Of a stretch of 64,000 nucleotides of DNA, positions 6,918 through 49,965 are shown in pieces. The notes beneath the pieces were generated by a model that had not been told where the DNA came from, searched no databases, and worked only from the letters and a program-made list of their open reading frames with translations. How positions within the stretch are numbered: the stretch's first letter is position 1; each line of letters starts with the position of its first letter. Source of the stretch: Paracoccaceae bacterium (GTDB lineage Bacteria > Pseudomonadota > Alphaproteobacteria > Rhodobacterales > Rhodobacteraceae); contig JAIOYF010000010.1 in NCBI GenBank assembly GCA_021741245.1, positions 105,485-169,484 on the forward strand, in the 5' to 3' direction. The translations under genes were made by a program, and so were the position numbers.

Positions 6918-6946
6918 TTGACAATCGACCTGACTAGGGCGTATCG
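6918..6946 (+). promoter_or_regulatory. Candidate sigma70 promoter for the SAM-II leader
   Basis: TTGACA (6918-6923), 17 nt spacer, GTATCG/TATCGG; predicted start coincides with the riboswitch 5' end. Confidence 0.5.
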
Positions 6947-6948
6947 GG

Positions 6949-7010
6949 TGCCTGTGGTGCTTTGTGCCGGATTGCGGGCCACGTTAAACATTCCGCTAAA
7001 AGGGTCTTGG
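6949..7010 (+). promoter_or_regulatory. SAM-II (metA-type) riboswitch
   Basis: ggtgctttgtgccggattgcgggccacgttaaacattccgctaaaaggg matches the SAM-II pattern (GGTGATTTG..CCG..TTGC..GCCACGTTAAA...GCTAAA) directly upstream of a methionine biosynthesis gene. Confidence 0.88.
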
Positions 7011-7014
7011 GTCG

Positions 7015-7048
7015 AACCCCGAAGCCTGTCCGGTTTCGGGGTTTTTTC
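7015..7048 (+). terminator. Rho-independent terminator between SAM-II aptamer and metZ
   Basis: ccccgaa-gcctgtccggt-ttcgggg-tttttt; 22 nt upstream of the metZ ATG, consistent with attenuation. Confidence 0.8.
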
Positions 7049-7070
7049 TTTGGCCAAAGGGGGCCGCGCC

Positions 7071-8252
7071 ATGACCGATACTTGGAAGACACGCACGAAA
7101 CTTGTCCATGAGGGCAGCCGTCGCAGCCAATATGGCGAAATGGCCGAAGCCATTTTCCTGACGCAGGGGTTTGTCTACCCCACCGCCGAAGACGCCGAGG
7201 CGCGGTTTGTCAAGGCTGGCGAGGACGAGTTCATCTATGCCCGCTATGGCAACCCCACGACGCGGATGTTTGAAGAGCGGATCGCAGGGCTTGAGGGCAC
7301 CGAGGATGCCTTTGCTACGGCAAGCGGGATGGCGGCGGTCAGCGGGGCGCTGACCTCGGTGCTGCGGGCGGGGGATCATGTGGTCAGTGCGCGTGCGCTG
7401 TTCGGCTCGTGTCTTTACATCCTTGAAGAGGTGCTGACCCGCTATGGCGTGCAGGTCACCTTTGTGGATGGGGCCGATCTGGAGGCGTGGCGCGCAGCGA
7501 TCACCCCCAAGACCAAGGCCGTGTTCTTTGAGTCAATGTCCAACCCGACATTGGAATTGGTCGATATTCGCGGCGTGTCTGAAATTGCCCATGCCAATGG
7601 CGCGCTTGTGATCGTCGACAACGTCTTTGCCACGCCGATTTTTTCGCGGGCGGTGGATCAGGGTGCGGATGTCATTGTCTATTCCACGACCAAGCATATT
7701 GACGGGCAGGGCCGGGCGCTGGGCGGGGTCGTGTGCGGCACGCAGGCGTTCATCCGCAAAACGCTTGAGCCCTATATGAAACACACGGGCGGCTCGATGA
7801 GCCCGTTTACCGCCTGGATCATGCTTAATGGCATGGCCACGCTGGACCTGCGCTGCCGCGCGATGGCGCAAAGTGCCGCCGCGATTGCGACCGCGCTGGA
7901 AGGGCACCCGAAACTGGCGCGTGTGATCTATCCAAGCCTTGCATCCCACCCGCAGCACGCCCTTGCGATGGCGCAGATGGGGTCGGGGGGCACCTTGGTC
8001 ACCTTTGATATTGCGGCAGGAAAAGAGGCGGCGTTCCGCTTTTGCAATGCCTTGGACATCATCAAGATTTCCAACAATCTTGGCGATGCGAAATCCATCG
8101 CGACGCACCCGGCCACAACCACGCACCAGCGATTGCCGCAAGATCAAAAGGACCTGCTGGGCATAACGCCGGGCTTGATCCGGTTGTCGGTCGGTTTGGA
8201 AGACACCGATGATCTGATTACGGATCTGATGCATGCGCTGGATCATGCGTGA
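7071..8252 (+). CDS. metZ: O-succinylhomoserine sulfhydrylase
   Basis: Cys/Met metabolism PLP enzyme: TRTKLVHEGSRRSQYGEMAEAIFLTQGFVY, YARYGNPTTRMFEERIAGLEG, VYSTTKHIDGQGR; SAM-II leader upstream. Confidence 0.93.
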   Translation: MTDTWKTRTKLVHEGSRRSQYGEMAEAIFLTQGFVYPTAEDAEARFVKAGEDEFIYARYGNPTTRMFEERIAGLEGTEDAFATASGMAAVSGALTSVLRAGDHVVSARALFGSCLYILEEVLTRYGVQVTFVDGADLEAWRAAITPKTKAVFFESMSNPTLELVDIRGVSEIAHANGALVIVDNVFATPIFSRAVDQGADVIVYSTTKHIDGQGRALGGVVCGTQAFIRKTLEPYMKHTGGSMSPFTAWIMLNGMATLDLRCRAMAQSAAAIATALEGHPKLARVIYPSLASHPQHALAMAQMGSGGTLVTFDIAAGKEAAFRFCNALDIIKISNNLGDAKSIATHPATTTHQRLPQDQKDLLGITPGLIRLSVGLEDTDDLITDLMHALDHA

Positions 8253-8462: not shown

Positions 8463-9554
8463 ATGAATATTCATACTCCCGAATTCGACCGCAAGCCATC
8501 GCGGGACGAAGCCGAGGCGGCCTTGGCCGTGCTGCGCCAATGGGCAGGCAAATCGTCGGATGATGAGATTGCGACGCTGGATTCCGCCGTTGGCTATCTT
8601 GTGCCGGGGCAGGGCTATCCTGCCCTGTCACGCGAGTATCCGACCGATTTTCGTGTGGATGACGTTTATAAAGACAGCCTGCCCGATCTGCAAAACGGGC
8701 CGTCGAGCCTGATCGTCGGGGCAAAGCAGCTGATCCAGCATGTCGGGATTTCCAACTTTCGGTTGCCGATCAATTATCGCACCCGCGACAATGGTCCGCT
8801 GACGCTGGAAACCTCGGTCACGGGCACGGTGAGCCTTGAGGCCGAGAAAAAGGGCATCAACATGAGCCGCATCATGCGCTCATTCTATGCCCATTCCGAG
8901 GCGGAGTTCAGCTTTGAGGTGATCGAGGCCGCGCTGGATGATTACAAGCGCGATCTGGGCAGCTTTGATGCCCGCATTCAGATGCGCCTGTCCTTTCCGG
9001 TCCGGGTAAATTCGCTGCGCTCGGGTCTGTCGGGTTGGCAATACTATGACATTGCTTTGGAATTGGTAGAGCGGGCCGGGGTGCGCAAAAAGATCGTGCA
9101 TCTGGATTACGTCTATTCCTCCACCTGCCCATGCTCGTTGGAACTGAGCGAACATGCCCGCCGCACCCGTGGCCAGCTGGCAAGCCCGCATTCGCAGCGC
9201 TCGGTTGCGCGCTTGTCGGTTGAGGTGAAGTCGGGCCGTTGCCTGTGGTTTGAAGATCTGATCGAACTGGCCCGTGACGGGGTGCCGACGGAAACCCAAG
9301 TCATGGTCAAGCGCGAAGATGAGCAGGCCTTTGCCGAGTTGAACGCCGCGAACCCGATTTTCGTCGAAGATGCGGCACGCAGCTTTTGTGCCGTTCTGAA
9401 GGGCGATCCGCGGATTGGCGATTTTCGGATCGTGGCCAGCCACCAAGAAAGCCTGCACAGCCATGACGCGGTGTCGATTCTGACCGAAGGGCCGACCTTT
9501 GCCAGTGACAGCCTTGATCCACGTCTGTTCCAGACGCTGTTCCATATCGGCTGA
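8463..9554 (+). CDS. folE2: GTP cyclohydrolase FolE2 (type IB)
   Basis: 363 aa; LDYVYSSTCPCSLELSEHARRTRGQLASPHSQRS and DAVSILTEGPTF are typical of FolE2. Confidence 0.94.
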   Translation: MNIHTPEFDRKPSRDEAEAALAVLRQWAGKSSDDEIATLDSAVGYLVPGQGYPALSREYPTDFRVDDVYKDSLPDLQNGPSSLIVGAKQLIQHVGISNFRLPINYRTRDNGPLTLETSVTGTVSLEAEKKGINMSRIMRSFYAHSEAEFSFEVIEAALDDYKRDLGSFDARIQMRLSFPVRVNSLRSGLSGWQYYDIALELVERAGVRKKIVHLDYVYSSTCPCSLELSEHARRTRGQLASPHSQRSVARLSVEVKSGRCLWFEDLIELARDGVPTETQVMVKREDEQAFAELNAANPIFVEDAARSFCAVLKGDPRIGDFRIVASHQESLHSHDAVSILTEGPTFASDSLDPRLFQTLFHIG

Positions 9555-11202: not shown

Positions 11203-12651
11203 ATGATTGATGTGCGTCCTGTCGCCTATGTGATCGGCCTTCTGGTGTCTGCCATGGGGGTCTTCATGATGTTCCCCTTGGCGCTGGATCTGGCGGCGGG
11301 GGATCCGCATTGGCGGGCGTTCTTCCGTTCGGCCGTGATTTGTCTTGTGGCGGGCGGCGCGACGGCGATGGCCTCGGCCAATGGCGCAAACGGGTCGATG
11401 ACCTTGCAACAGATCTTTTTGCTGACAACGGGGGTCTGGCTGGCGATGCCCGCCTTTGGCGCGCTGCCGCTGATCTTGGGGGAGCCGGGGCTAAGCCTGA
11501 CGGATGCGTTTTTCGAAAGCATTTCGGGCATGACCACGACCGGAACCACGGTGATTGAGGGGATCGATGCCCTGCCGCTGGGCACCAACCTGTGGCGTGC
11601 CATTCTGCAATGGCTGGGGGGCCTTGGGATTGTCATCGTCGCGATGTTGTTCTTGCCGGTGATGAAGGTGGGGGGGATGCAATTCTTCCGATCCGAAGGA
11701 TTTGACACGTTGGGCAAGGTTTTGCCGCGTGCGCTGGATATCTCATCGGCCTTGATCCAGATTTACGTCTTGCTGACGGTGGCCTGTGCGATCACCTATT
11801 TTGCCTTGGGGATGAGCGGGTTTGAGGCGGTTTGCCATGCCCTGACCACGGTTTCCACGGGCGGGTTTTCCACATCAGACCGCAGTTTCGGGCTGTTTCA
11901 GGGGCCTGCGGAATATGCGGCCTCGATCTTCATGCTGCTTGGCAGCTTGCCGTTCATCCGTTTTGTGCAACTGGCCCAAGGCTCTATCCGCCCGCTTTTG
12001 ACCGACAGTCAGGTGCGGGCCTATTTGCGCTGGAACGCCTATGCCGTTGTGGCGATTGTTGCCTATGAGTTGTGGCACGGTGGCCAAAGCCTGCCTGTGC
12101 TGCTGCGAGAAACCACATTCAACGTCGTCTCGACCTTTTCCGGCACCGGGTTTTCAAGTGTGGACCTGTCATCTTGGGGGCCGTTCCCCTTTGTGCTGTT
12201 GATCGTGGTGGGGCTGATCGGGGGGTGCACGTCGTCAACCGGGTGTTCGGTCAAGGTGTTTCGCTATCTGATCTTGTTCGAGGCGATCAAGGTGCAGATC
12301 AAGCGCCTGCATAACCCGTCTTCGGTCAATCCGATGCGCTATGACGGGCAAGCGGTCAGCTTTGACGTGGTGGATTCGGTGATCGTGTTCTTCACCATGT
12401 TCATCCTGACCTTTGGTCTTTTGGCTGTGGCGCTTGGGTTGTCGGGGCTGGAGTTCAAGACAGCCGTGACCGCCGCATGGACATCCGTGGCCAATATCGG
12501 CCCGGTTTTTGGCCCCGAGGTGGGGCCAACCGGGGCCGTACACGGATTTCCCGACTTTGCCAAATGGCTGATGATGGCGGGAATGTTGGTGGGGCGACTG
12601 GAGCTTTTGTCGGTCTATGTGCTGTTCATGCGGCGGTTTTGGCAGACCTGA
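11203..12651 (+). CDS. TrkH family potassium uptake protein (copy 2)
   Basis: Paralogue of the previous CDS: SGMTTTGTTV, TVSTGGFSTSDRSFG, TFSGTGFSSVD, VANIGPVFGP; ATG at 11203. Confidence 0.93.
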   Translation: MIDVRPVAYVIGLLVSAMGVFMMFPLALDLAAGDPHWRAFFRSAVICLVAGGATAMASANGANGSMTLQQIFLLTTGVWLAMPAFGALPLILGEPGLSLTDAFFESISGMTTTGTTVIEGIDALPLGTNLWRAILQWLGGLGIVIVAMLFLPVMKVGGMQFFRSEGFDTLGKVLPRALDISSALIQIYVLLTVACAITYFALGMSGFEAVCHALTTVSTGGFSTSDRSFGLFQGPAEYAASIFMLLGSLPFIRFVQLAQGSIRPLLTDSQVRAYLRWNAYAVVAIVAYELWHGGQSLPVLLRETTFNVVSTFSGTGFSSVDLSSWGPFPFVLLIVVGLIGGCTSSTGCSVKVFRYLILFEAIKVQIKRLHNPSSVNPMRYDGQAVSFDVVDSVIVFFTMFILTFGLLAVALGLSGLEFKTAVTAAWTSVANIGPVFGPEVGPTGAVHGFPDFAKWLMMAGMLVGRLELLSVYVLFMRRFWQT

Positions 12652-12662
12652 GCCTTTTCAGG

Positions 12663-14006
12663 TCAGACCGCTGCCTCGACCGCGCCGACAATCTCATTCA
12701 CCACAGAGAGCAACATCGCCTCATCCTCACATTCGGCCATCACGCGGATCAGCGGTTCGGTGCCGGATTTGCGGATGAGGATGCGGCCCTTGCCCTTTAT
12801 CCGCGCGGCATTCGCCTCGATCACCGATTTGACGGCGGCTTGCTCCAAGGGTTTTACGCCATCGGGAAAGCGGACGTTCTTCAACAGCTGGGGCACGGTT
12901 TCAAACTGCTGCACAAGGGTGCTGGCCTTATGCCCGGTGCGGGCCATCTCGGCCAGAAATTGCAGACCCGCGATCAGACCATCCCCGGTGGTGGCATAGT
13001 CGGTCATCACGATATGGCCCGATTGTTCGCCGCCAAGGTTAAAGCCCCCGGCGCGCATCCGTTCCACCACGTAGCGATCCCCGACCGCCGTGCGCTCCAA
13101 CCGCAGGCCACGCGCCGCCAGATGACGTTCCAGCCCAAGGTTTGACATAACGGTGGCGACAAGGGCCCCGCCGCGCAGTTTGCCCTCTTCGGCCCAGCGG
13201 GTGGCCAGCATGGCCATGATCTGGTCGCCATCCGCGACGCGGCCTGTTTCGTCCAAGATCATCACGCGGTCTGCATCGCCATCAAGGCAGATGCCCACAT
13301 CGGCACCATGCGCCACCACTGCCTCGGCCGCGGTCTGGGTATAGGTGGAGCCGCAGCGGTCATTGATGTTGGTGCCGTTGGGCGCAACACCAATGGGCAC
13401 CACGGTTGCGCCCAGTTCCCAAAGCACCTCGGGCGCGGCCTTGTAGGCCGCCCCATTGGCGCAATCGATCACCACCTTTAGCCCATCCAGACGAACGCCC
13501 GCCGGAAAAGTGGTCTTGACGAATTCCTGATAGCGGCCACGGCCATCCTCGATCCGCTTGGCACGGCCAATATTGTCAGCCTGCGCATATTGGATTTCGC
13601 CTTCGACAATCGCCTCGATCTCGGCCTCGGCCTCATCCGACAGCTTGAAGCCGTCGGGGCCGAAGAATTTGATCCCGTTGTCTTGATGCGGGTTGTGGCT
13701 GGCCGAGATCATCACGCCCACATCCGCCCGCATGCTGCGCGTCAAGAACCCCACGGCGGGGGTCGGAACGGGGCCAAGCAGCAAGACATTCATGCCCGTG
13801 CTGGTCAGCCCGGCGGTCAGGGCGTTTTCCAGCATATAGCCCGACAGGCGCGTGTCCTTGCCAATGACAACACGGTGGCCTGCCGCCCCGTCCCGGCGAA
13901 AGAACCGGCCCGCCGCAGCCCCAAGGCGCAGGGCCATGTCGGCGGTCATCGGAAAGGCATTGGCACGGCCGCGCACACCGTCGGTTCCAAACAGCTTGCG
14001 TGTCAT
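12663..14006 (-). CDS. glmM: Phosphoglucosamine mutase
   Basis: [65 protein letters not shown]. Confidence 0.97.
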
Positions 14007-31930: not shown

Positions 31931-32566
31931 GTGCAAAAGGATGCCTATACACTGATCCTCGAGGCGATCGAGGCGGGGGTTTACAAGCCCGGCGACAGGC
32001 TGGTCGAATCCGAACTGGCAGAGCGGCTGGGTGTCAGCCGGACCCCGGTGCGCGAGGCGCTACAGCGGTTGGAAACCCAAGCGATGCTGACGCGGGACGG
32101 GCGCAGCCTGATCGTGGCAAGTCTGGATCATAACCAACTGGCCGAACTTTATGCCGTGCGGACCGAGTTGGAGGGGCTTGCCGCCCGGCTGGCGGCCCGC
32201 CATGCGACTGATGAGGAAATCCGGGTGCTGCGCGCCATGGTGGAAGATGATCGCAAGCTGCTGGGAGATCCGCTTGGGCTGAGCCGGGCGAACAAACGCT
32301 TTCACCATCAGGTGCATCTGGCCAGCCATAACCGATTCCTCGTGCAGCAATTGGATTTGGTCCATCGCTCCATGGCGCTTATGGCGACCACTTCTCTTGC
32401 CGCCGAGGGGCGGAGTGAGATTGCGCTGGCCGAGCATGACCGGATTGTTGCGGCCATTGAAGCGCATGATGGCGAGGGGGCCTATCAGGCCTTGAAAACC
32501 CATATCAGCCGCGCCTTTGAGACGCGGCTTCGGGTCGATGCGGGCGAGATCCGGCTGCGCAGCTAG
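31931..32566 (+). CDS. GntR family (FadR/VanR-type) transcriptional regulator
   Basis: GVYKPGDRLVESELAERLGVSRTPVREALQRLE plus FCD-like domain; GTG start. Confidence 0.92.
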   Translation: MQKDAYTLILEAIEAGVYKPGDRLVESELAERLGVSRTPVREALQRLETQAMLTRDGRSLIVASLDHNQLAELYAVRTELEGLAARLAARHATDEEIRVLRAMVEDDRKLLGDPLGLSRANKRFHHQVHLASHNRFLVQQLDLVHRSMALMATTSLAAEGRSEIALAEHDRIVAAIEAHDGEGAYQALKTHISRAFETRLRVDAGEIRLRS

Positions 32567-32591: not shown

Positions 32592-34514
32592 TTACGGCGG
32601 ATCGAAATGGCCGTGATCGGTCTTGTCCCAGTAAAAGGGGCGATAAACCATTTCCCAAGCCGCCTTATACGAGGCCAGCGCACCAAGCGAGAAATAGAAA
32701 TGCATCAAGGGCACCCAAAGCCGCGAAAACCGATGTCCCGATAGCCGCAGGCCAATCAGGCCGAGGGTGATATTCACCCCCTCGGTCAGCACAAACAGCG
32801 CGATCAGGCCAAAGGCAGCCCAATGCGGCAAGGCGCTGGCGATGGGGTGATGGAACCCGAAAGCCGTGATCCAGAACGACCAAAGCACGGGCAGCAGCAG
32901 GAATTGAGACAAGGTGCACAAGAACAGCACCTGGAAACCCGCGAATTGCCACGCCCCCAATTGCCGCCACAAAACCACCGGGTCGCGCATATGCGTGGCC
33001 CATGTCATCATATAACCCTTTAGCCAGCGTGAGCGTTGCTTGACCCATGGCAGGGCCCGGCAATTTGCCTCTTCACCGGTGACGGTTTCAATCAACTCTG
33101 TCCGATAGCCGTGGCGATAGAGGCGCATGCCAAGATCGGCATCTTCGGTCACGTTATGGGCATCCCAGCCCCCTAATTCCTCCAGCACGGCGCGCCGGAA
33201 AAACAGCGTGGTGCCACCCAACGGAATGGGCAGGCCCAAACGCTGCAGGCCCGGAAGGATCAGGCGAAACCATGTGGCATATTCAATGCAAAAACAGCGT
33301 GATAGCCAATTTGTGGTGGGGTTGTAGAAATCCAGAACGCCCTGAAGGCAGGCCACATCCGGCCCGCGTTCGGCAAAGCGGTGCACGACGCGGGTGATCT
33401 GATCAGGCTCTGGCGCGTCCTCGGCGTCATAGACCCCGACGATGGAGCCGCGACAATGATCCAGCGCAAAATTGAGCGCGCGCGGCTTTGTCTTGACCTG
33501 ACCATCGGGCACGACAACGATCCGCATCCATGGCGGCAGGTCGGTTGCGGCAAGGGCGGCGCGGGTCATATGATCCTCGGCCTCCACCACCAGAACAATG
33601 TCCAGCAATTCACGCGGATACTCCAGCCGCCCCAGCCTGCGGATCAGTCGCGGCGCGATATCGCTTTCGCGGTAGAGGGCCACCATGATGGACACGACAG
33701 GCAATCGGGCCAAGACCGGGGCGGGGCCAGAGGGCGCGCGGCGCAAGGTCGAGGCAAAGCCTGCCGCGATCTTGAGTGCGGTTGACAGCGCCAAGGTGAC
33801 AACGGCCCAGCCCACCACACCCCAAACAAGGGTCATTGGGGACAAGACGGCTAGAACAGACAAGATCAGTCCAAGAAGGAAAAGCGGCACAAACAAGCGT
33901 CTGCCCGCCAGATTGCGGCAGCTTTCGGCGGCGCAAACACGGGTTTCGGCGGCCCGCGCGAGGCTTTTCCCGCGATAGGCAAGGATGGTCTGCTCAATCT
34001 CTTGTGCGGGGGCAATGGCCATGGCGACGGGGCCAAAAACCTCGGTCAGTTTGGCGCGGTGGCGTTCAAACTCCTCTGGCTGCGCGGTGGCGATCACCGT
34101 CACCGCCCCGGTCTGACGCCAAGGCAACAGGCTGTTGCGCAAACAGAAATTCCCGCCAATCCTGTCGATAAGACGGATGTCGGGCTTGGCGGCCATAGGA
34201 TGGATCACTTCGGTTTTCCAATGGCGGGCCAACGCCACACAAAGCTCATCCGGGCCGATGAGGTCGCGTGACACCAAGATATCTGTCAAGCGGCCGCTGC
34301 GTCGGGCGTGCAGGGCCAGTGCACGCACCATTTCATCCGGCGCAATCAGACCATCGCGCAGCAAGGCCACGCCCAGCGTATCCGCAGGGCTGGGCCTTTC
34401 GGCGGCAGGACGCAACTTGGCTGCGGGCAGTGCTTGCCGCAGGTCTTTTGCCAGATGATCTTGGGACAGGGCTTGCAGCTTGGGACTCCTCAGCGCTTTG
34501 GCCGAGGGTCCCAT
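32592..34514 (-). CDS. Family 2 glycosyltransferase (processive synthase type) with N-terminal MshEN-like domain
   Basis: TLGVALLRDGLIAPDEMVRALALH-ARRSG-RLTDILVSRDLIGPDELCVALARH then TMs and GT2 motifs VVEAED, GVYDAEDAPEPDQI, TEDADLGMRL, QRSRWLKG. Confidence 0.9.
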   Translation of the reverse strand: MGPSAKALRSPKLQALSQDHLAKDLRQALPAAKLRPAAERPSPADTLGVALLRDGLIAPDEMVRALALHARRSGRLTDILVSRDLIGPDELCVALARHWKTEVIHPMAAKPDIRLIDRIGGNFCLRNSLLPWRQTGAVTVIATAQPEEFERHRAKLTEVFGPVAMAIAPAQEIEQTILAYRGKSLARAAETRVCAAESCRNLAGRRLFVPLFLLGLILSVLAVLSPMTLVWGVVGWAVVTLALSTALKIAAGFASTLRRAPSGPAPVLARLPVVSIMVALYRESDIAPRLIRRLGRLEYPRELLDIVLVVEAEDHMTRAALAATDLPPWMRIVVVPDGQVKTKPRALNFALDHCRGSIVGVYDAEDAPEPDQITRVVHRFAERGPDVACLQGVLDFYNPTTNWLSRCFCIEYATWFRLILPGLQRLGLPIPLGGTTLFFRRAVLEELGGWDAHNVTEDADLGMRLYRHGYRTELIETVTGEEANCRALPWVKQRSRWLKGYMMTWATHMRDPVVLWRQLGAWQFAGFQVLFLCTLSQFLLLPVLWSFWITAFGFHHPIASALPHWAAFGLIALFVLTEGVNITLGLIGLRLSGHRFSRLWVPLMHFYFSLGALASYKAAWEMVYRPFYWDKTDHGHFDPP

Positions 34515-34589: not shown

Positions 34590-35750
34590 TCAGGCGGCGC
34601 GTCGTGCAACCATGGCTTGGGCAAAGCGCTCAAACAGGTAATAGCTGTCTTGCGGGCCGGGGCTGGCCTCGGGGTGGTATTGGACCGAGAAGATCGGCTT
34701 GCCATCCACGGCAATTCCGCAGTTCGACCCATCGAACAATGAGACATGGGTTTCACTGACGCCCGATGGCAGGGTCTGGCTATCAACGGTAAAGCCATGG
34801 TTCATACTGGTGATCTCAACCTTGCCGGTTGTCAGATCCTTGACCGGATGGTTCGCACCGTGGTGACCGTGGTTCATCTTGACCGTCCGCGCCCCAAGGG
34901 CGAGGGCCAGCATCTGGTGCCCAAGGCAGATGCCGAAAACGGGCAGATCGCGGGCCAGAACGCCTTGGATCATCGGCACGGCATAGGCCCCGGTCGCCGC
35001 CGGATCGCCCGGACCATTGGACAAGAAAACACCCTCGGGGTTCAGGGCAAGCACATCTTCTGCCGTCGCAGAGGCGGGCAGAACCGTGACTTCACAGCCC
35101 GCACTGGCAAGGCAGCGCAGGATGTTGCGCTTTGCGCCATAGTCGATAGCCACAACCCGAAGGCCTGCCCCCTCACGCCGGGTGTAACCTTCGGGCCAAG
35201 CCCAGCGTTTTTCGTCCCAACGATAGGATTGGGTGCACGACACGTCCTTGGCCAGATCAAGGCCGACCAGACCCTTCCAGGCCCGCGCCTTGGCCACGAG
35301 AGCCTCGATATCAAACACGCCATCGGGATTATGGGCCAAGGCCACATGCGGGGCCCCTTGCTGACGGATGGCGCGGGTCAGGCGACGGGTGTCAATGCCG
35401 CCCATGCCGATCCGGCCCTTTTGCACCAGCCAATCAGCCAGATTTCCGGTGGCGCGCCAATTCGACGGCTCCGTCGGATCCCATTTCACGATCATGCCAG
35501 CGGCGACGGGATCGCCCGTTTCGTCATCCTCGGAGGTGACGCCGGTGTTGCCGATATGGGGGAAGGTAAAGGTCACGACTTGCCCGGCATAAGAGGGGTC
35601 GGTCATGATTTCTTGATAGCCCGTCATCGCGGTGTTGAACACCAGTTCAGCCACCGTTTCCCCCGTGGCGCCAAAGCCGTGGCCGTAAAACAATGAGCCA
35701 TCCGCGAGGGCAAGGCATGCGGTCGGGCGGGGATTGGCGGAGGTGGGCAT
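34590..35750 (-). CDS. carA: Carbamoyl-phosphate synthase small subunit
   Basis: ACLALADGSLFYGHGFGATGETVAELVFNTAMTGYQEIMTDPSYAGQ; FGICLGHQMLALALGARTVKMNHGHHGANHPV. Confidence 0.97.
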   Translation of the reverse strand: MPTSANPRPTACLALADGSLFYGHGFGATGETVAELVFNTAMTGYQEIMTDPSYAGQVVTFTFPHIGNTGVTSEDDETGDPVAAGMIVKWDPTEPSNWRATGNLADWLVQKGRIGMGGIDTRRLTRAIRQQGAPHVALAHNPDGVFDIEALVAKARAWKGLVGLDLAKDVSCTQSYRWDEKRWAWPEGYTRREGAGLRVVAIDYGAKRNILRCLASAGCEVTVLPASATAEDVLALNPEGVFLSNGPGDPAATGAYAVPMIQGVLARDLPVFGICLGHQMLALALGARTVKMNHGHHGANHPVKDLTTGKVEITSMNHGFTVDSQTLPSGVSETHVSLFDGSNCGIAVDGKPIFSVQYHPEASPGPQDSYYLFERFAQAMVARRAA

Positions 35751-35928
35751 CTGCGGCGACTCCTTTGGGCAAATTTCGCGGAAACTACGGGGGTATAGCG
35801 ACGGGGTCAAGGCTTTGGCGCAAATGGATTATGAAGGAAAAACAATGGCTTGATAAAATCGTGATAGGTTGTTCTTCTGGCTTATACCTTGTATTGTATC
35901 GCGGTGCATCATCTGGGGATATGCGGAC

Positions 35929-47735: not shown

Positions 47736-49004
47736 ATGGCCGATATCACCGCATCCGAGATACCCGCTGGCGGCTTGGTCACCAGCGATGGTCGTCCTCT
47801 GAAGACAGCGCTTGCCGATGCACAAGCGCGGGCCAAACGGCGGGCGTTCTTGCTCGTGGCACCGTTGCTGGTGTTTGTCGTTGTGACCTTCATCGTGCCT
47901 ATTGGGCAGATGATGCACCAGTCGATCTACAATGACGGATTTTCCGCAAACATGCCGCGCATCACGGCGTGGTTTGCCGAGAACCCCATCGGGACGGAGC
48001 CTGACGAGACAGCGTTTGAGGCACTCGCGCTTGACGTCAGGGATTCCGCTGCTGCCAAGACGATTGGCGTTGTGGGCACAAGGGTGAATTATGAGATGTC
48101 CGGCACCCGGTCCCTCTTCACCTCGACCGGGCGCAAGGCCAAGGATTTTTCTGAGCCCTATCATGAGGCCTTGCGCGCGGCTGATGCCAAATGGGACAAC
48201 CCGGAGCTTTGGGCCACGATGCGTCAGGTTTCGCGCGCCTACAGCCCGAATTTCTTCTTGGCCGCACTTGACCTGACCCGTGACACGCAAGGAAACATCG
48301 TCCGTGTGCCAGAGGAGCGTCAGGTTTATGTGAACCTGTTCATAAAGACCTTTGGTCTGGGTCTGTTGATCACCTTTACCTGCTTTCTCCTTGGCTTTCC
48401 CATCGCGCATCTACTGGCAATTCTGCCGCTGCGCTGGTCAAACCTGTTGATGATCCTTGTGCTGCTGCCATTCTGGACCTCACTTTTGGTGCGCACGACA
48501 AGCTGGATGGTGCTGTTGCAACAACAAGGGGTGCTCAACAGCCTGCTGGTCTGGTCCGGGATCATTGGCGACGATGGCCGCATCCAGATGATCTATAATC
48601 AGACCGGCACCATCATTGCGATGACGCATATCTTGCTGCCCTTTATGATCTTGCCGCTTTATTCCGTTATGCGGCCAATTCCACCGTCGTATGTGCGGGC
48701 GGCGCGGTCTTTGGGGGCAACGAGTTGGACAGCGTTTCGCCGGGTCTACCTGCCACAAACCCTGCCGGGCATCGGTGCCGGATCGTTGCTCGTGTTCATT
48801 CTGGCGGTTGGCTATTACATCACACCTGCCCTTGTCGGTGGCGCGAGTGGTCAGTTGATCTCCAACCTGATCGCCTTTCACATGCAAGACAGCCTGAACT
48901 GGTCGTTGGCGGCGGCGCTTGCCGCGCTGTTACTGGCCGCGGTTCTGGTCCTGTATTGGCTCTACGACCGTCTGGTCGGCATTGACAACCTCAAGCTGGG
49001 ATAA
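47736..49004 (+). CDS. ABC transporter permease (PotB-like) with large loop after TM1
   Basis: BPD permease motif AARSLGATSWTAFRRVYLPQTLPGIGAG; RBS aagggg before ATG at 47736. Confidence 0.92.
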   Translation: MADITASEIPAGGLVTSDGRPLKTALADAQARAKRRAFLLVAPLLVFVVVTFIVPIGQMMHQSIYNDGFSANMPRITAWFAENPIGTEPDETAFEALALDVRDSAAAKTIGVVGTRVNYEMSGTRSLFTSTGRKAKDFSEPYHEALRAADAKWDNPELWATMRQVSRAYSPNFFLAALDLTRDTQGNIVRVPEERQVYVNLFIKTFGLGLLITFTCFLLGFPIAHLLAILPLRWSNLLMILVLLPFWTSLLVRTTSWMVLLQQQGVLNSLLVWSGIIGDDGRIQMIYNQTGTIIAMTHILLPFMILPLYSVMRPIPPSYVRAARSLGATSWTAFRRVYLPQTLPGIGAGSLLVFILAVGYYITPALVGGASGQLISNLIAFHMQDSLNWSLAAALAALLLAAVLVLYWLYDRLVGIDNLKLG

Positions 49005-49011
49005 GCGGACC

Positions 49012-49965
49012 ATGGCCCTTCCAACATATGCAGACCCGCTTGAGAAGATCTGGTACTACACCTACCGCACGATTTGTGCGCTGATCTTCATCTTTCTGAT
49101 CGCGCCGATCCTCATCGTGATCCCGCTCAGCTTCAACGCCGAGCCCTATTTCACCTTCACCCAGAAGATGCTGTCCTTTGATCCCGAAGGCTATAGCCTG
49201 CGGTGGTATGATCTGTTGCTGACGCAGCCGGGTGTGCCTGCCGATGTGCCGCGCGATGCCGCGTGGTGGGCGCGCGTCTGGAACGAGGCCGCCTGGATCA
49301 ATGCGGCCAAGAATTCGGTGATCATCGGATTTTTCTCGACCATCGTTGCCGCCGCCTTGGGCACACTTGCGGCCCTTGGCCTCAGCCGCCCGGAAATGCC
49401 CTATCGCCGTGCGATCATGGCGGTGCTGATCTCGCCCATGATCGTGCCGATCATCATCACGGCAACGGGGCTGTTCTTCTTTTACTCAAACCCCTGCGCC
49501 CTGATTTCATGGACAGGACTTGATCAACAATGTGGTCGCCTGGCGGGAACCTATTTTGGCGTTGTGCTGGCCCATGCGACGCTGGGTATCCCCTTCGTCA
49601 TCATAACCGTGACGGCCACACTGGTCGGGTTTGACCAGTCGCTGAACCGGGCCGCGATGAGCCTTGGGGCCTCGCCCACGACGACATTTTTCAAGATCAC
49701 CATGCCGCTGATCTTGCCGGGCGTGATCTCGGGCGCGCTGTTTGCCTTTGTCACCTCGTTTGACGAGGTGGTGGTGGTGCTGTTCGTGGCGGCCCATGAT
49801 CAACAGACAATCCCGCGCCAGATGTGGAACGGTATTCGCGAGCAGATCAGTCCGGCGATCCTGTCGGTGGCCACCATTCTTGTGATCGTCTCGGTGGGTC
49901 TGCTTGCAATGGTGGAACTGCTGCGCCGCCGGTCTGAACGCCTGCGCGGGGTGACCCCGCACTGA
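49012..49965 (+). CDS. ABC transporter permease (PotC-like)
   Basis: AAMSLGASPTTTFFKITMPLILPGVISGALFAF. Confidence 0.92.
   Translation: MALPTYADPLEKIWYYTYRTICALIFIFLIAPILIVIPLSFNAEPYFTFTQKMLSFDPEGYSLRWYDLLLTQPGVPADVPRDAAWWARVWNEAAWINAAKNSVIIGFFSTIVAAALGTLAALGLSRPEMPYRRAIMAVLISPMIVPIIITATGLFFFYSNPCALISWTGLDQQCGRLAGTYFGVVLAHATLGIPFVIITVTATLVGFDQSLNRAAMSLGASPTTTFFKITMPLILPGVISGALFAFVTSFDEVVVVLFVAAHDQQTIPRQMWNGIREQISPAILSVATILVIVSVGLLAMVELLRRRSERLRGVTPH

Follow-up and report, generated by a model that had tools for sequence, protein, structure and literature searches.

The 64,000 bp stretch of Paracoccaceae bacterium DNA analysed here (the window) carries a gene in which two MshEN-like motifs precede a GT2 polysaccharide synthase. 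The first-pass annotation proposed that exopolysaccharide synthesis is gated here by c-di-GMP without a PilZ domain. Does the encoded protein still have the means to sense c-di-GMP, and how does it compare in this respect with its relatives?

An MshEN domain in front of a GT2 synthase

The gene, its parts and its two immediate neighbours are given below.

32592..34514, minus strand: MshEN-GT2 gene (P0001), 640 aa, from ORF call and Pfam
34308..34379, minus strand: MshEN_N motif I, residues 46-69, TLGVALLRDGLIAPDEMVRALALH, with T for Arg9, Gly11 and Gly18 retained, and H for Gln32
34293..34307, minus strand: spacer ARRSG, 5 residues (70-74), read from the translation
34221..34292, minus strand: MshEN_N motif II, residues 75-98, RLTDILVSRDLIGPDELCVALARH, with T for Gly40, D for Gly47 and H for Gln61; NF053729 28.3 bits, below the cut-off of 38
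33966..34220, minus strand: MshEN_C alpha/beta subdomain, residues 99-183 (Pfam PF05157; model helices and strands at 113-190)
33747..33902, minus strand: putative N-terminal membrane-helix pair, residues 205-256 (model helices 205-224 and 226-256)
32946..33698, minus strand: GT2 catalytic domain, residues 273-523 (PF13641, E=2.3e-27; PDB fold matches led by cellulose and hyaluronan synthases)
33417..33428, minus strand: DAED, residues 363-366, invariant in 44 aligned orthologs
33141..33149, minus strand: TED, residues 456-458, catalytic-base motif; T456 and E457 invariant and D458 at least 90% in 44 aligned orthologs
33024..33038, minus strand: QRSRW (QxxRW), residues 493-497, invariant in 44 aligned orthologs
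32610..32630, minus strand: C-terminal WDKTDHG, residues 629-635, past the last membrane helix; W629, K631, T632, H634 and G635 invariant in aligned orthologs
34590..35810, minus strand: carA, carbamoyl-phosphate synthase small subunit, named from sequence recognition; conserved neighbour on the same strand, 75 bp upstream
31931..32566, plus strand: GntR-family regulator, recognised from sequence; convergent conserved neighbour

The exact 24-5-24 arrangement first read at the N-terminus was recovered, with residues 46-98 mapping precisely to 34379..34221. Compared with the consensus RLGxx(L/V/I)(L/V/I)xxG(L/V/I)(L/V/I)xxxxLxxxLxxQ published earlier (PMC5013675), the two motifs together fit 17 of 22 scored positions, and 2000 shuffled versions of the protein reached 15 at best. 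Pfam MshEN (PF05157) matched residues 101-183 with 35.2 bits (cut-off 23.1). The NCBIfam c-di-GMP motif NF053729 matched residues 47-97 and stayed below its cut-off of 38, with 28.3 bits on the protein and 33.1 bits for the gene in the genome scan, while the NfrB model aligned to residues 40-176. As all three match, the domain covers about residues 43-190, and is thus longer than first annotated. A profile built from 44 orthologs matched MshE (5HTL) at 3.7e-11. A chance pattern is ruled out by the shuffles, the HMM matches and the fold. The exact spacing, on the other hand, is not diagnostic, since the c-di-GMP-binding NfrB has a 4-residue spacer in our own reading of its translation.

The full-length AlphaFold2 model (pLDDT 89.6, pTM 0.88) starts with a disordered N-terminus, followed by the MshEN_N helices (43-53, 59-72, 76-82 and 88-98) and MshEN_C (113-190), and continues with two long helices (205-256), the GT2 domain and more long helices beyond the QxxRW helix. 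As read from the model, the long helices flanking the GT2 domain are presumably membrane helices. Because Foldseek of the full-length model returned GT2 structures only, among the matches listed, the MshEN part was modelled separately (residues 40-195, pLDDT 93.4). Its top PDB match was the c-di-GMP-bound MshE 5HTL (TM 0.76/0.85, 2.1 A); Thermus PilF domains came next, then Xanthomonas PilB-PilZ complexes (7LKM and 7LKO) and the non-binding XpsE (2D28). The protein has both the four-helix MshEN_N and the alpha/beta MshEN_C, homologous to MshE 1-145. The structure prediction that had been suggested as a check, with a fold unlike MshEN as the possible refutation, therefore came out in favour of the domain assignment.

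The catalytic part was also correctly read as a processive synthase; DAED (363-366), TED (456-458) and QRSRW (493-497) are intact, in the model the domain lies between long hydrophobic helices, and the top PDB fold matches are bacterial cellulose synthase BcsA and hyaluronan synthases. The 640-aa product is probably a membrane enzyme making a surface polysaccharide.

Comparison with known synthases

The best NCBIfam glycosyltransferase score was that of PgaC (54.3 bits), and the protein falls far short of the curated cut-offs of BcsA and PgaC alike (422 and 699). Membership of BcsA is ruled out by the CelA score (49.5 bits against at least 699) and by the absence of PilZ from the genome, that of PgaC by a score far under the curated cut-off and the absence of partner genes beside the gene, and an NfrB equivalog by NF008411 (25.4 bits against at least 1170) and the reversed domain order. 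NfrA_C (PF13283) was not found in the window's genome, the E. coli control being positive.

The window protein shares the processive GT2 fold and motifs with the BcsA cellulose synthase and the PgaC PNAG synthase, but it has no PilZ domain and no adjacent bcs or pga partners. E. coli NfrB, a c-di-GMP-activated GT2-MshEN protein and the synthase of the N4 glycan receptor, likewise joins GT2 (with TED and QxxRW) and MshEN in one membrane protein. WDKTxH after the last membrane helix is common to NfrB (WDKTTH) and the window family (WDKTDHG in the window), and some orthologs carry the NfrB motif pattern PLG..R / RLG..G..Q. Unlike in NfrB, where GT2 precedes MshEN, MshEN comes first in the window protein, GT identity between the two is 24% over 335 aa, neither nfrA nor ybcH neighbours the gene, and Gly40 is gone. 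Sinorhizobium BgsA, a mixed-linkage glucan synthase, is another alphaproteobacterial GT2 without PilZ and is reported to be c-di-GMP-activated (PMC5567048), but it acts via its own C-terminal segment, which is not described as MshEN.

Genomic context

Wherever the flank of a family locus was long enough to judge, carA lay beside the gene; the synteny on that side also includes yqeY, and the opposite side mostly has GntR, a HAD hydrolase and ubiH (gene names recognised from sequence, not by Pfam). The genome-context check proposed earlier thus revealed a carA adjacency that is conserved in the Rhodobacterales family loci examined. No terminator-like site was found in the 75-bp gap between carA and the window gene, so the two may be co-transcribed. 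The earlier description of a gene standing alone holds as far as EPS or export genes are concerned, since no conserved neighbour of this kind was seen in the family loci read, but it overlooked that the gene follows carA on the same strand. Elsewhere in the window, a SAM_alpha (SAM-II) riboswitch (6944-7020, plus strand, 55.7 bits) lies upstream of, or overlaps, the start of the ORF at 6918-8252.

State of the c-di-GMP binding site

The window protein has the same fold and the same 24-5-24 register as V. cholerae MshE (PDB 5HTL), but its MshEN is fused to GT2 instead of an ATPase and carries five replacements, R9T, Q32H, G40T, G47D and Q61H. The two substitutions noted at first in the second motif, T and D for glycine, are those of Gly40 and Gly47; that list was incomplete, as Arg9 is replaced by T and both Gln32 and Gln61 by His. 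Leu10, Gly11 and Gly18 of motif I and Arg38, Leu39, Leu54 and Leu58 of motif II are retained. Of the four glycines demanded by the filter behind the published logo (positions 11, 18, 40 and 47; PMC5013675) the protein has only the first two, and it falls short of the curated NF053729 threshold of 38 bits.

Which of these changes matter can be judged from characterised proteins. V. cholerae MshE variants G11L and G40I show no thermal stabilisation by c-di-GMP, and XpsE, whose changes include G11V and G40L, has lost c-di-GMP binding (PMC5013675). In NfrB, G491L abolishes function and the motif II glycine change G519S does so partly, with phage N4 killing as the readout (PMC8669472). NfrB binds c-di-GMP with a Kd of 1.0 uM, and in our own reading of its translation it is without Arg9, Gly18 and Gln32. 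As it departs at each of these positions and in the exact spacer and yet binds, none of them is decisive, and a single deviation from the consensus tells little. Judged by these comparisons, Gly11 and Gly40 are the informative positions, of which the window protein retains the first and has lost the second. A Thr at Gly40 might leave part of the function, since NfrB G519S does and the MshE test used the bulky G40I. Canonical high-affinity c-di-GMP binding in the window copy is probably lost or strongly weakened, because Gly40 is absent from motif II throughout its clade and the copy has the other binding-site changes.

Distribution and history of the family

MshEN-GT2 is a core gene of Rhodobacterales, with orthologs in 191 of 198 genomes and 88 of 89 genera; it fell below the cut-off used in 6 genomes of genus g49 and in one other of the 198. 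When 76 orthologs were placed in a tree by their GT part, with the MshEN columns excluded, the window fell in a clade of 25 sequences (99% SH-aLRT), and Gly40 is absent from every member. Gly11 and Gly40 are both present in 29 of the 76 orthologs, and all four glycines in 15. The Gly11 plus Gly40 state needs 11 changes over the tree, against a mean of 23.3 when shuffled. Same-locus orthologs above the NF053729 cut-off include L050 (51.8 bits), which holds 14 of 14 key positions, L047 (57.8), L049 (57.5) and L024 (58.3), and the highest score of a same-locus ortholog is 72.9 bits. Close kin of the window (L033, 26.7 bits; L039, 32.4 bits) also fail the cut-off of 38.

Distant full-length relatives from other alphaproteobacterial families (~35% identity) have the same domain order and mostly both glycines; carA was not seen beside them within roughly 1.5 kb of flank. 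Since these relatives mostly retain both glycines, the Gly loss appears to be derived, and the pattern supports a Gly-Gly ancestor, loss in the window clade and several further losses elsewhere. It is likely that the ancestral synthase responded to c-di-GMP and that the sensor then eroded in the window's clade. In ten sequences sampled from this clade, the median dN of MshEN_N relative to GT was 3.4-fold, compared with 1.9-fold in the Gly-keeping set, and MshEN_N dN/dS was ~0.37 in the window clade. These rates point to selection on MshEN_N that is relaxed in the clade rather than abandoned, with the domain still constrained.

Several orthologs have an altered gene structure. In L030, L054 and L056 the MshEN_N motif region is largely gone at the same locus and GT2 is retained. 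In Pseudotabrizicola alkalilacus (L065:6760-10209), and also in G002, the ortholog is split near residue 440 by ~3.4 kb of additional DNA that looks like an inserted element. In L064, around 9245-9374, it falls into two reading frames that overlap or adjoin each other, and at G024:C3:1693664-1695258 it lies in two frames, the break dividing the MshEN part from the GT part.

c-di-GMP signalling in the genome and the order

The window's genome encodes three GGDEF proteins: one is a REC-GGDEF protein whose motif reads GGEEF, another shows a weak HNOBA match, and the third is of the GGDEF-EAL type. No PilZ was found anywhere in this genome, and the window gene encodes its sole MshEN. The proposed c-di-GMP-gated synthesis without PilZ stands in its components (MshEN fold, GT2, c-di-GMP synthesis genes, and no PilZ in protein or genome), but the gating itself is doubtful for the window copy.

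Across 37 genomes of the family, including that of the window, GGDEF occurs in 36, MshEN in 36 and PilZ in 4. Among the 198 Rhodobacterales genomes, 53 have PilZ and 91 have the c-di-GMP motif above the curated cut-off; in all 80 of these 91 for which the ortholog position is known, the motif lies in the MshEN-GT2 ortholog. For the model species Dinoroseobacter shibae, a published search reports no identifiable PilZ-domain gene (PMC6473078). As the curated motif sits in this protein and PilZ is scarce in the order, MshEN-GT2 with an intact motif is, judged by its distribution, the obvious candidate c-di-GMP effector of Rhodobacterales. Genomes with an intact MshEN motif have PilZ less often than the others (14/91 vs 39/107; Fisher p = 0.0012, not corrected for kinship). 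Many genus g49 genomes carry PilZ, and six g49 genomes lack the MshEN-GT2 gene at the cut-off. Given the uncorrected kinship and the many PilZ genomes supplied by g49, the anticorrelation is only a hint.

Two diguanylate cyclase genes lie ~7 kb apart at G000:C21:41578-42039 and 48770-49270 (L096:5552-6592, minus strand, and 11862-13295, plus strand). One encodes the GGDEF protein that weakly matches HNOBA (heme-NO-binding-associated), the other a PleD-like REC-GGDEF protein. A similar pair at a similar distance was observed in several relatives, including G018, G020, G022, G025, G027 and G031.

Explanations for the window gene

The explanation that we regard as reasonably probable is an ancestral c-di-GMP-switched MshEN-GT2 downstream of carA, whose sensor has lost or weakened its binding in the window clade. 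The protein would be a polysaccharide synthase of the processive GT2 type that sits in the membrane and carries a regulatory MshEN domain in the cytoplasm, at its N-terminus. In its ancestral form, which is still common, c-di-GMP would by homology bind between the MshEN motifs and switch on the GT2 fused to them, as shown for NfrB (PMC8669469). In the window clade, where Gly40 is gone, high-affinity binding has probably disappeared or become much weaker; MshEN would persist there as a folded domain of the enzyme, and the synthase is likely constitutive or otherwise controlled.

Partly overlapping with this explanation, the domain may serve as a protein docking surface, with control exerted by a partner protein, which we consider somewhat unlikely. 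XpsE and Xanthomonas PilB have comparable N-terminal domains, degenerate or partner-binding. The model also matches XpsE (2D28), which is reported to have lost c-di-GMP binding (PMC5013675), and the PilB-PilZ complexes (7LKM and 7LKO), and the fold is under purifying selection despite the motif loss. However, these partner-binding domains match less well than the ligand-bound MshE, no conserved partner gene was found beside the gene, and the fast evolution of MshEN_N in the clade does not suggest a tightly kept interface.

It is unlikely, in our estimation, that the window copy is a working c-di-GMP-gated synthase of lowered affinity, as the first-pass annotation had proposed. Because PilZ and any other MshEN are absent from the window's genome, some effector may be expected to remain there, and its diguanylate cyclases are intact with no other recognised dedicated receptor domain. 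The predicted MshEN fold is intact as well, Gly11, Gly18 and most hydrophobic contacts are retained, and NfrB binds without Arg9, Gly18 and Gln32. Against this stand the change of Gly40, a guanine-contact glycine, to Thr, that of Gly47 to Asp and of both Gln to His, together with the absence of Gly40 from all clade members and the NF053729 score under the curated cut-off.

That MshEN is a decaying relic without a current role, in a gene that may be on its way out, is improbable, for although the motif region is missing in L030, L054 and L056, the gene is interrupted in L064 and L065 and it is missing at the cut-off used in seven genomes (six of g49 and one other), 191 of 198 genomes have an ortholog, the catalytic motifs are invariant, the dN/dS of the domain is clearly below 1 and the predicted fold is confident.

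Significance

NfrB, one MshEN-GT fusion, was reportedly characterised in 2021. The existence of MshEN-glycosyltransferase fusions had already been stated in 2016 (Wang 2016, PMC5013675). Three points, all drawn from sequence comparison, appear to be new here: the reversed-order fusion is a core gene of the whole order, it is linked to carA, and its glycines have been lost in the pattern described. We found nothing direct in the literature on the MshEN-GT2 family in Rhodobacterales, although the supplementary lists of PMC5013675 may include such fusions.

The wider proposal, to which we give slightly less than an even chance, is that MshEN-GT2 beside carA acts as the principal dedicated c-di-GMP effector in Rhodobacterales, repeatedly uncoupled by loss of Gly11 or Gly40 and unwired in the window clade. 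If true, the c-di-GMP-switched synthase of a surface polysaccharide, present in nearly every genus, would come as a natural series of orthologs, wired and unwired, at the same locus. The family provides one named gene for testing the role of c-di-GMP in abundant aquatic bacteria that make and break this messenger, and comparing intact-motif with Gly40-less orthologs at the same locus would also tell how a second-messenger switch goes while the enzyme stays.
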